DNA of 46,442 nt from Gammaproteobacteria bacterium (lineage in GTDB: Bacteria > Pseudomonadota > Gammaproteobacteria > Thiohalomonadales > Thiohalomonadaceae). Of this stretch, positions 8,222-13,736 are shown in pieces. The notes under the pieces were generated by a model. It had not been told where the DNA came from, searched no databases, and saw only the letters and a list, made by a program, of their open reading frames with translations. Every line of letters begins with the position of its first letter. Position 1 is the stretch's first letter. A program made the translations under genes and the position numbers. The DNA is taken from contig QKED01000051.1 of assembly GCA_003252455.1 (NCBI GenBank), forward strand, positions 1 through 46,442, read 5' to 3'.

Positions 8222-8469
8222 GGGTCAGCTGCATACTTTTGCTACAGAGGCACAGAGGCACAGAGGCACAGAGGCACAGAGGCACAGAGGCACAGAGGCA
8301 CAGAGGCACAGAGGCACAGAGAGGCGGAATTCGTGTGCGATCGGAGGTTGAAGCGCACCTCTCCCTCTATTCGGGCAGCCTTTCCCATGCACCAATAGGG
8401 CTACTTCTGTATGTCCCCTGTCTCTCCGTGGCTGATTTTCAGCTGCTCGGGCAAAGTACGCGCTGGCCC
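8222..8469 (+). repeat. Repeat element A: MITE-like palindromic element upstream of purB
   Basis: About 248 bases bounded by imperfect terminal inverted repeats: the left end (8222-8243) contains GCATACTTTTGC and the right end (8449-8469) contains GCAAAGTACGC, whose complement matches with a few differences. Just inside, ACAGAGGCAC on the left pairs partly with CTCTCCGTGGC (about 8422-8432) on the right. It has no coding capacity. Element B at 13.5-13.7 kb shares the ends and an internal segment around GGCAGCCTTTCCCATGCACC (8375-8394 here). It ends 95 bases before the purB start codon. Confidence 0.75.
8244..8321 (+). repeat. 8-bp tandem repeat array (unit ACAGAGGC, 9 perfect copies)
   Basis: Nine exact copies of the octamer fill 8244-8315, followed by a partial copy. 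The array starts at the inner part of the left arm of element A, where element B has a single ACAGAGGC. It therefore looks like slippage expansion of the arm. The number of copies is likely to vary between strains. Confidence 0.95.
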
Positions 8470-8564
8470 GGACCCACCGCTCAGTTACGTAACGCCCCCC
8501 ACCCCATCTGATGTATCATTGGGCGGTTTTCCCTGCATATTTCAGAGTCAAGAGAGGAGCCGGC

Positions 8565-9932
8565 ATGGAACTGAGTACACTCACCGCGATCTCGCCGATC
8601 GATGGCCGTTATGGGCACGTTACGGCAGATCTGCGCCCCATCTTCAGCGAGTACGGCCTGATCCGCCACCGGGTCACCGTGGAGGTGCGTTGGCTTCAGT
8701 ATCTGGCCGCCCTAGAGGGGATTGTCGAGGTGCCCGCCCTCTCCGCGCACGCCCACAACCTGCTCGACAAGATCGTCGACCACTTCAACGCAGAGGACGC
8801 ACAGCGGGTCAAGAACATCGAGCGCACCACCAATCATGACGTCAAGGCGGTGGAGTACTTCCTCAAGGAGAAGATCACCGGCAACGCCGAGCTGGAGGCG
8901 GTCAGCGAGTTCATCCACTTCGCCTGCACCTCCGAGGATATCAACAACCTCTCCCACGCCCTGATGCTGCGCGAGGCACGTACCGGCATTGTGCTGCCGA
9001 AGATGGACGAGATCATCGACGCCGTCACCGCCCTGGCGCACACCTATGCCAGCGTGCCCATGCTCTCACGTACCCACGGCCAGCCCGCCTCCCCCACCAC
9101 CCTGGGCAAGGAGATGGCCAATGTCGCCTACCGCCTGCGCCGTCAGCGCGAGCAGCTCAAGGAGGTGCCCTTCCTCGGCAAGATCAACGGCGCCGTGGGC
9201 AACTACAACGCCCATCTCGCCGCCTATCCCGAGCTCGACTGGGAGGCGATTGCCGCGGGCTTCGTCACCTCGCTCGGTCTGAGCTGGAACCCCTACACCA
9301 TCCAGATCGAGCCGCACGACTACATCGCCGAGTTCTTCGACTGCCTCGCCCGCTTCAACACCATCCTCATCGACTTCGACCGCGACGTGTGGAGCTACAT
9401 CTCGCTCGGCTACTTCAAGCAGAAGACCGTCGAGGGCGAGGTGGGCTCCTCCACCATGCCGCACAAGGTCAACCCCATCGACTTCGAGAACTCCGAGGGC
9501 AACCTCGGCATCGCCAATGCCCTATTCGGCCACCTCGCCGCCAAGCTGCCCATCTCCCGCTGGCAGCGTGACCTGACCGACTCCACCGTGCTGCGCAACC
9601 TCGGCTCCGGCATCGCCTACTCGCTCATCGCCTACGCCTCCACCCTACGCGGCATCGCCAAGCTGGAGGTCAACGAAGCGACCCTGGCCAGCGACCTCGA
9701 CCACAACTGGGAGGTCCTCGGCGAGGCGATCCAGACCGTCATGCGCCGTTACGGCATCGAGCAGCCCTACGAGAAGCTCAAGGCACTGACCCGTGGCAAA
9801 CGCGTCGACGCCGCCGGCATGGCCGAGTTCATCGACACCCTGGAACTGCCCGACGAGGTCAAGACCCGCCTCAAGGCGATGACCCCCGGCAGCTACATCG
9901 GCAATGCCGTAGCGCAGGCCGAGAAGATCTGA
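8565..9932 (+). CDS. purB: Adenylosuccinate lyase
   Basis: Acts twice in purine synthesis, splitting fumarate from SAICAR and from adenylosuccinate. The protein of 455 residues matches the length of the enterobacterial enzyme. The fumarase/aspartase superfamily signature [16 protein letters not shown] is present in the second half, together with the N-terminal [12 protein letters not shown] and the TSEDINN motif. ATG at 8565 is preceded by GAGAGGAG, which decides the start over upstream open codons. Repeat element A lies directly upstream, so the promoter is either in the 95-base gap or within the element. Downstream are two hairpins and then the RoxA-type gene. Confidence 0.97.
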
Positions 9933-9943
9933 TCCCGCCACAC

Positions 9944-12187: not shown

Positions 12188-13287
12188 CCCACGGGCACCT
12201 CACTGCCACTCAGGTGGACCCGGGTCGTGGGATAGGCGAACTGCGCCCCATTGGCCAGCACGATCGCCACCACCTTGAGCATCACATCCTGCTTGATCGC
12301 GTGAAACTTCACCCACTCGGTGGTGTGGGTGAAGGTGTAGATGAAGAACTCCAGCGCCGAGGGGGCAAAGGTGTCGAGATTGACGATGAGCGTCTGGCCA
12401 CTGTCGATCTCAGGGTGCCCGCGCAACATCTCCACCACCTGCTCGATGATCACCGCCACCTTATCCGCGTCCTCATAGCGCAGGCCTACGCGTTCATGGA
12501 TACGCCGATGGAGCATGCGCGATGGGTTCTCCACCGCGATGGTGGTGAAGGTGGAGTTGGGCAGATAGAGCGGGCGCTTGTCGAAGGTGCGGATGGTGGT
12601 ACGACGCCAGCCGATATGCTCTACCGTACCCTCGATCTTGCGGTCGGGCGAGCGGATCCAATCCCCCACGGCGAAGGGACGATCCAGGTAGACCATCAGG
12701 CCACCGAAGAAGTTGGCCAGCAGGTCCTTGGCGGCGAAACCGACGGCAATACCACCGACCCCACCGAAGGCGAGCACGCCGGAGATGCTGAAGCCGAGCG
12801 ACTGCAGCGCCACCAACACCGCCGTGATGGTCACCGAGATGCGCAACAACTTGGTGACCGCATCGACCGTGGTGCGATCCAGCCGTTCGTTGCGCGCCGT
12901 GGCGCGCAGTTGCAGATTCACCTCCACCTCGCTAATGAGGCGATTGAGGAACCAGGCGAGGGTGACGATCACCCCGAGCGTGCGCACCGGCCCTACGGCA
13001 TCGAAGATGGTGGCCTCGGTGCGATGGGCGACGATATCGGCGGCGAAGGTGATGCCGATGACCCAGATGAACGGCGTCACGGGGCGCTGCAGCGCAGTGA
13101 CGATGGACTGTTTCCACATGTCCTTCTCCGCCCCGATGAGGTCATCGTAGCGCTGCAACAGGCGGCGCTGGAGCAGGTCGACGGTGAGCGCCAGGGTGAC
13201 GACGATGAACACCTGGATGGCCAAGGCCGTGAGTCCCTCAGCACCGAACCAGATCAGCGGCTGCTGCAACAGCGTCTCGAACTCCAT
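12184..13287 (-). CDS. MscS-family mechanosensitive channel
   Basis: A small-conductance mechanosensitive channel family protein of 367 residues. It has four or five membrane segments in the first 190 residues, and a pore-lining helix rich in Gly and Ala (FGGVGGIAVGFAAKDLLANF). Next come the beta domain signature (YLDRPFAVGDWI) and a cytosolic alpha/beta domain to the end. It is longer than E. coli MscS (286 residues) because of extra N-terminal helices, like YbdG/YnaI-type channels. It probably releases ions or osmolytes on hypo-osmotic shock. ATG at 13287 has AGGAGAG upstream. Its TAG overlaps the stop of the convergent GNAT gene. Confidence 0.88.
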   Translation of the reverse strand: MEFETLLQQPLIWFGAEGLTALAIQVFIVVTLALTVDLLQRRLLQRYDDLIGAEKDMWKQSIVTALQRPVTPFIWVIGITFAADIVAHRTEATIFDAVGPVRTLGVIVTLAWFLNRLISEVEVNLQLRATARNERLDRTTVDAVTKLLRISVTITAVLVALQSLGFSISGVLAFGGVGGIAVGFAAKDLLANFFGGLMVYLDRPFAVGDWIRSPDRKIEGTVEHIGWRRTTIRTFDKRPLYLPNSTFTTIAVENPSRMLHRRIHERVGLRYEDADKVAVIIEQVVEMLRGHPEIDSGQTLIVNLDTFAPSALEFFIYTFTHTTEWVKFHAIKQDVMLKVVAIVLANGAQFAYPTTRVHLSGSEVPVG

Positions 13288-13542
13288 AACTCTCCTCCTG
13301 TTTCAATCAGCGCACGATGATACTGGATGCCAACCGCGCGGCATAAAAAGCACGCCTCCAGCCGCCAACAGCGGAACTCGCTGCACCCCGCCTCCCCCTC
13401 GGGTAGATAACCACCTCCGTGTGTCAGGGTGCGCCACTATTCACCGACCCACCCATGCCACACCACTCATCGCGCCCCTGCCCGCCCCGCCACCGCGGTT
13501 TTTGCGCGTAGCCCCGAGCGGGCGCTTCTCACCCCTGTGTAC
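13288..13542. other. Non-coding stretch between mscS-like gene and repeat element B
   Basis: I see no gene here. The mscS promoter should lie in its first 100 bases. A small palindrome (CCCTGT-GT-ACAGGG, 13533-13546) abuts the left end of repeat element B. With the element and the folD leader the gene-free interval is 528 bases. Confidence 0.45.
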
Positions 13543-13736
13543 AGGGCAAGCGCATACTTTTGCCACAGAGGCACGGTGGCGGCGCAGTGGTACAGCACAG
13601 GCGCAATTGGCGTTCGAAGCGAACGCCTCCACTACGTGGGTAGCCTTGCCCGTGCGCCAATACCCGCCAATCGCCGTGTTCTCTGCGCCTCCGCGGCTAG
13701 ACTTCGGCCGTTTTGGGCAAAGCATGCGGTTGCCCT
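13543..13736 (+). repeat. Repeat element B: MITE-like palindromic element upstream of folD
   Basis: About 194 bases bounded by near-perfect terminal inverted repeats: the left end 13543-13564 contains CGCATACTTTTGCC, and the right end 13715-13736 contains GGGCAAAGCATGCG. Inside, GCCACAGAGGCAC (13562-13574) pairs imperfectly with GCGCCTCCGCGGC (about 13685-13697). The internal part also aligns with element A (for example GGTAGCCTTGCCCGTGCGCC here). No coding capacity is seen. It ends 79 bases before the folD start codon. Confidence 0.75.

Follow-up and report, generated by a model that had tools for sequence, protein, structure and literature searches.

MITEs with ISAs1-type ends upstream of purB and folD and their spacing to -10-like promoter boxes

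Two related short elements, A and B, lie just upstream of purB and folD in a 46,442-nucleotide stretch of DNA (the window: contig QKED01000051.1 of the draft assembly GCA_003252455.1, from a gammaproteobacterium of the Thiohalomonadaceae), and the question raised by this locus is why they stand so close to the start codons of these two genes. A first-pass annotation of the window described them as resembling miniature inverted-repeat transposable elements (MITEs) and proposed either an insertion preference for promoter regions or a role as a mobile promoter or leader. The former proposal is retained here in a sharper form: half of the copies in the genome have one end 40 to 42 bases away from a -10-like box.

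Elements A and B and their copies in the genome

Alignment with other copies in the genome placed the limits of A and B at 8221-8471 and 13542-13737, so that the elements named in the first-pass annotation stand, with true ends one to two bases further out. The family ends are CAGGGCAANCGCATACTTTTGCC and its inverse, as given by the alignment of copies. In A and B the outer terminal repeat begins CAGGGCAA, a feature absent from the earlier description, and the left end of A has decayed to CGGGTCAG. The left core GCRTACTTTTGC has two matches in the window with at most one mismatch (8231 and 13552, versus 0.14 expected), and the right cores and the internal homologous segment described before are real, both elements being on the plus strand. 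Each element is flanked by 10-bp target duplications that are 9/10 identical (GCCCACCGCT / ACCCACCGCT at A and CCCCTGTGTA / CCCCTGCGTA at B). The short distance to the start codons was also confirmed, the ATG of purB (8565) lying 93 bases past A and that of folD (13816) 78 bases past B; both gene names were assigned from Pfam domains. The features of the two loci, in window coordinates, are as follows.

8211-8220, plus strand: left 10-bp target duplication of A, 9/10 identical to 8472-8481
8221-8471, plus strand: MITE copy A, subfamily A
8221-8243, plus strand: left terminal inverted repeat of A, outermost bases decayed
8244-8321, plus strand: tandem array in A, 8-bp unit ACAGAGGC, 9.8 copies
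8449-8471, minus strand: right terminal inverted repeat of A
8472-8481, plus strand: right 10-bp target duplication of A
8514-8519, plus strand: TATCAT, -10-like box of purB, starting at offset 43 counted from the end of A
8565-9932, plus strand: purB (adenylosuccinate lyase), by Pfam domain
13532-13541, plus strand: left 10-bp target duplication of B
13542-13737, plus strand: MITE copy B, subfamily B
13542-13564, plus strand: left terminal inverted repeat of B
13562-13697, plus strand: inner hairpin of B, GCCACAGAGG to CCTCCGCGGC
13715-13737, minus strand: right terminal inverted repeat of B
13738-13747, plus strand: right 10-bp target duplication of B
13780-13785, plus strand: GAAAAT, -10-like box of folD with TGC before it, starting at offset 43 counted from the end of B
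13816-14679, plus strand: folD, by Pfam domain

The long imperfect hairpin predicted for both elements was found in B, which folds better than 200 of 200 shuffled sequences (z -4.3). The whole of A folds no better than its shuffles (z -0.02), 89 of the 200 doing as well or better, although its outermost arms do pair. The tandem array of A is an expanded inner left arm that occurs in no other aligned copy. A scan of the window for RNA families gave nothing at A or B.

A search of the genome for the terminal repeat with at most three mismatches gave 33 matches, compared with 2 for the reversed control. Searches with A, B and the terminal repeat yielded 16 alignable copies in two main subfamilies (the copy on contig C116 has no left end), which together with a diverged copy with another interior (C9) and a decayed one (C111) make up the 18 copies counted. 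A chance match in a called gene (C117), a sequence without terminal repeat (C53) and single repeat-like ends on C63, C47 and C89 were left out of the counts. The end on C63 (79452-79470; about 2053-2071 of the fetched stretch L028) has no mate in that stretch and is perhaps a remnant. The copies are 178 to 251 bp long with inverted repeats of ~22 bp, and indels between them break the reading frame, leaving no conserved coding frame. Target duplications reach at least 8/10 identity in 11 of the 18 copies, at least 9/10 in seven and perfect identity in four, while none of 306 cross-copy pairs used as a control reaches 8/10. The MITE-like nature of the elements is upheld by these terminal repeats, duplications and copies, as well as by insertion sequences (ISs) with the same ends in other genomes. 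The terminal repeat is rare in the class (8 of 369 genomes within one mismatch, this genome included), and viral contigs contain no exact match to it.

All 18 copies lie outside called genes, though intergenic DNA makes up just 9.8% of control stretches totalling 400 kb; genes outside the window were called with a codon-usage script written for this analysis. The family thus extends beyond the window and is not spread equally inside and between genes. Among the 17 copies with two called neighbours, 11 lie between divergent, three between co-oriented and three between convergent genes. Divergent gaps account for 29% of the intergenic length (p 0.0025 for the excess of copies); with a cut-off at gaps of 150 bases their share is 35% and the excess is smaller.

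Spacing to a -10-like box

Offsets were counted outward from the element end to the first base of the box. The -10 weight matrix and the Bacteroidota -10 motif TAnnTTTG follow general knowledge of bacterial promoters, as does the numbering relative to the transcription start. With the matrix, 8 of the 25 matches found over 110 offsets from the ends of the genome's own copies fall at offsets 42-43. Likewise, 9 of 54 matches over 90 offsets fall at 41-43 in a set of 161 ends from other species. The motif TAnnnT occurs four times at offset 42 and four times at offset 43 of the 36 own ends, against 0.27 per position, and none of 300 dinucleotide shuffles reaches eight (mean 0.53, maximum 4). Nine of the 18 own copies have TAnnnT at 41-43 at one end, none at both ends and nine at neither. 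The shared orientation of A and B does not extend to a rule for the family: the nine box-bearing copies face the box five times with one end type and four times with the other, and an orientation rule was rejected.

Six of the other-species ends were dropped, the flank being another copy, and in the remaining 155 the motif TAnnnT stands at offset 42 in 26 cases. The per-position mean is 4.9, and 0 of 300 shuffles reach 26 (mean 4.66, maximum 12). TAnnTTTG was found at 41-43 in 11 of the 155 ends (shuffle mean 0.31, maximum 3), and among 44 ends of loci with a Bacteroidota or Chlorobiota name a relaxed form of it gave 13 occurrences (control mean 0.51, maximum 3). The spacing is common to MITEs of proteobacteria and Bacteroidota. 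Among MITEs with both ends known, 26 of 43 have a box (control mean 7.6, maximum 13); this holds for 16 of the 25 with duplications of at least 9/10 (control mean 4.7, maximum 9) and for 10 of the remaining 18 (control mean 2.9, maximum 6). In addition, TTG, the heart of the -35 box, is present at offsets 18-20 in 13 of 53 positive ends, where other offset triples average 2.9 with a maximum of 8; the negative ends have it in 15 of 138 cases.

At purB the box TATCAT begins at 8514, and at folD the box GAAAAT, which follows TGC and does not fit TAnnnT, begins at 13780; both are at offset 43. A similar box (TATCAT, TATGAT, TATTAT or TAAAAT) is found 5' of purB in seven of the nine relatives' loci read, from 14 relatives matched, and 5' of folD (GAACAT, GAAAAT, GAGAAT, GAAGAT and the like) in all six loci read, from 12 matched. 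No terminal-repeat-like sequence was detected within four mismatches in these 15 relatives' loci. Because the relatives have the boxes and lack the terminal repeats, the purB and folD boxes appear to be native and the elements later arrivals. Judged from this comparison, the elements sit just upstream of a native core promoter, and upstream of the putative transcription start, at both genes. They would be neither promoter nor leader, since the boxes lie outside them and have counterparts in element-free relatives. A hybrid promoter with its -35 box inside the terminal repeat was likewise rejected: given a -10 box at offset 42, the -35 box would fall near offset 19, in flanking DNA.

The other proposal of the first-pass annotation, which casts the elements as mobile promoters or RNA leaders for purB and folD, could draw on the nearby start codons and on the good fold of B as RNA. 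With the boxes in host DNA, no consensus promoter at A and a fold of A no better than chance, we find it hardly credible.

Ends of the ISAs1 type and the interior of the elements

A terminal-repeat scan of GTDB contigs gave at least 113 loci. Those listed comprise MITEs of about 105-530 bp with interiors unlike one another, and ~1.2-kb elements with the same ends, several of which contain an intact open reading frame. All five of the frames scanned encode ISAs1 transposases (NF033564, E at most 6.2e-115; PF13808, PF01609), and six of 12 IS pairs with these ends have duplications of at least 9/10. ISAs1 ISs such as ISPa60 (ends CAGGGCAATCGCATGAACG..) share with the MITEs terminal repeats beginning CAGGGCAA and 10-bp duplications, and are presumed to be the source of the transposase. 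The left IS end continues with GATCGTACTTT after CAGGGCAA and the right end is NCGCATACTTT. The window elements differ from the ISs in that they have no transposase and both of their ends are of the right-end type, as is the case for the MITEs. On the basis of these ends, we assign A and B to old copies of a MITE family with ISAs1-family ends.

The first-pass annotation had noted that the window contains no transposase, and this can be extended to the whole draft genome (118 contigs), which yielded no ISAs1 transposase; a search of the same kind matches 24 of 299 genomes. The sole PF01609/DDE_Tnp_1 match in the genome, a frame with one stop on contig C17 (L061, 539-1120), is not ISAs1. Because no such transposase was found, the family looks orphaned in this genome.

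The inner arms of the MITE (GCCACAGAGGCACGGAG.. and inverse) resemble a second family of hairpins. The arm pattern has 139 matches in the genome, a count that takes in MITE arms and the tandem array of A, whereas its reversed control has 9. The hairpins that stand alone (GCCACGGAGGCACGGAGGACACGGAGA.. and inverse) range from 64 to 270 bp, their interiors seem unrelated by eye, and their arms have an 8-base rhythm; one lies in the window at 34092-34185 and they are widespread in the genome (L265-L282, L284). Unlike the MITEs, 16 of the 20 examined lie between co-oriented genes, one between divergent genes, and three overlap a called gene. Seven of 55 other genomes have matches to the arms but not the ISAs1 repeat. 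Since the inner arms resemble the standalone hairpins, the MITE looks like a composite of ISAs1-type ends around arms of the second family. A literature search with exact strings of the inner arms returned no relevant paper.

In other bacteria, MITEs with ISAs1 ends (loci L139, L095, L155, L080 and L113) contain different inner hairpins, some of which resemble repeats that we take to be common in such genomes. It seems that, from one bacterium to another, the same ISAs1 ends have acquired different inner repeats. A genome of the same taxonomic family as ours (G010; L202, L205, L215) has a different ISAs1-ended MITE of about 160-270 bp in length variants, which is also present in L067, L120, L140, L154, L161, L168 and L174, some of them titled Thiohalomonas. 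According to the available part of its description, the BrickBuilt MITE of Porphyromonas gingivalis (PMC4596501) is likewise an intergenic MITE that took up a repeat and multiplied with it, and differs in its IS5-type ends, 23-nt repeats and promoters inside the element. The sections available on MITEAba12 and the Correia elements (PMC6382973, PMC10969869) also describe non-autonomous elements next to genes; these carry outward promoters, whereas here the -10-like box is in host DNA outside the element.

Proposed promoter-guided insertion and its alternatives

We propose, with rather more confidence than doubt, that insertion of ISAs1-ended MITEs is guided by promoters, RNA polymerase being the likeliest guide. 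An ISAs1-type transposase, not found in this genome, would have moved the MITEs in trans, by transposition with a 10-bp staggered cut. Guided by a promoter, the cut would leave one element end 40-42 bases from the -10 box (offset 41-43), with an insertion point about -54 to -44 from the putative transcription start, immediately 5' of the -35 box. Promoter-bound RNA polymerase is the best candidate for the guide. The core promoter would be left intact, the element replacing what lay upstream of it. An origin of the spacing at insertion, promoter activity of the boxes and the guiding role of the polymerase are all inferred. Guided insertion is our first choice because selection would give a threshold and phasing would need many co-options.

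Random insertion followed by purifying selection would leave as survivors those copies that lie outside genes and upstream of the core promoter, in agreement with the lack of copies in called genes and the 11 of 17 between divergent genes. As this predicts a threshold at about 40 bases, and not the observed peak at 41-43 with other offsets near the mean, we judge it very improbable. Alternatively, insertion may be unguided and copies kept because the element end acts as an upstream promoter module (a binding site, UP-like element or insulator) phased with the -10 box. Each end of the copies in this genome contains an inner dyad, GGGCAA..TTGCCC, that would suit such a module, and the spacing, which stands out in MITEs but not in full-length ISs, may be a property of the copies retained rather than of the transposase's action. 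However, the spacing is as frequent among copies whose near-perfect duplications mark them as presumably recent as among the rest (16/25 and 10/18), which disfavours phasing, and several lineages with seemingly unrelated MITE interiors would require many independent co-options; this explanation is therefore considered unlikely. We give slightly less credence still to a transposase that itself reads promoter DNA (a -10-like TAnnnT some 31 bp from the cut, or DNA shape) with no part for RNA polymerase. The nearly base-accurate spacing to TA and the lack of own copies positive at both ends would agree with it, whereas a motif that varies by group (TATAAT-like or TAnnTTTG) at an unchanged spacing, and the excess of TTG at the -35 position, fit a bound promoter better.

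Several observations weigh against promoter-guided insertion. The first test used the single -10 matrix, while TAnnnT and TAnnTTTG were picked later with the flanks in view. Nine of the 18 own copies are without the motif, B among them under strict TAnnnT, and the signal is weaker in 64 higher-G+C ends, where TAnnnT occurs 4, 3 and 2 times at offsets 41, 42 and 43 against 0.95 per position (9 versus about 2.9 expected). A strict consensus promoter scan of 8200-8600, which covered A, found nothing; the purB box is thus weak by consensus. No enrichment is seen in full-length ISs that share the MITE ends, with a box in 2 of 12 (control mean 2.4, maximum 5), in a poor sample that includes one spurious pair (L172) and six elements from one metagenome-assembled genome. 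Other ISAs1 elements were mapped blind, and ends were found in 5 of 27 phylum loci and 15 of 18 plasmid loci. The latter represent 12 distinct sites, as L262 and L263 repeat the L229 site and L264 shares its left flank; five of these 12 have 10/10 duplications. By eye and with no control, a box is present in one of the five and in three of the 12 distinct plasmid sites. Finally, the available passages of a large survey report ISAs1 elements as over-represented between convergent genes and describe no fixed spacing (PMC9208149).

Among the ISAs1 elements with a box, ISPa60 has TATAAT at 42, a Yersinia ruckeri plasmid copy TATCCT at 43 and an Azospirillum plasmid copy, with no duplication left, TAGAAT at 43; ISVa13 has GATAAT at 42, outside the motif. 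The IS counts neither prove nor exclude promoter spacing for full-length ISs, being too few to decide. ISAs1 subclades may differ in this respect, as reported for ISKra4 compared with ISAzba1 and ISMich2 in the part of the source available (PMC3942029).

Promoter targeting is known from other elements. According to the accessible sections of PMC3942029, TnGBS, ISLre2 and ISKra4-group elements target sigma-A promoters, with insertion points 15-17 bp 5' of the -35 box, and those of them with near-symmetrical repeats have promoters on either side. The MITEs resemble them in both respects: TTG at offsets 18-20 is 17-19 bases away, nearly the same place, and promoters occur on either side. TnGBS, ISLre2 and ISKra4 use Mutator-like (p-MULT) transposases and make 8-9 bp duplications, and in those sections the targeting is described for the elements themselves; here, instead, the partner ISs belong to NF033564/PF13808, the duplications are 10 bp and the spacing is seen in the MITEs only. 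The ISAs1 transposase is unrelated to these Mutator-like enzymes, and the MITEs work like this promoter-targeting group without being a member of it. ISAs1 is not mentioned in PMC3942029, and a search of open-access papers gave no report of ISAs1 MITEs, or of ISAs1 elements targeting or phased to promoters.

It is conceivable, at a little under an even chance, that promoter-guided transposition arose a second time, in the ISAs1 family, and that in proteobacteria and Bacteroidota alike it hits almost the same position 5' of the -35 box. If so, the upstream face of promoter-bound RNA polymerase would be indicated as a shared docking site, and a second unrelated family would make promoter finding by transposases testable by comparison. 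ISAs1-type MITEs would then serve as natural, base-accurate promoter markers, also in uncultured bacteria. This would explain how elements can lie so near housekeeping genes without destroying them, and might account for repeats already described near promoters, for example the inverted one at the capsule operon of P. gingivalis.

As read from oligonucleotide sequences, the published 77-bp inverted repeat 5' of the P. gingivalis capsule gene PG0106 begins CAGGGCAATCGCATTTGAAC and inverse (PMC3969353), a start much like the ISAs1 element end CAGGGCAATCGCATTTGAAATT (L233), and this repeat may be an ISAs1-type MITE. Elsewhere in the window, a thiamine pyrophosphate (TPP) riboswitch at 20854-20953 on the minus strand is the sole RNA family above gathering score.

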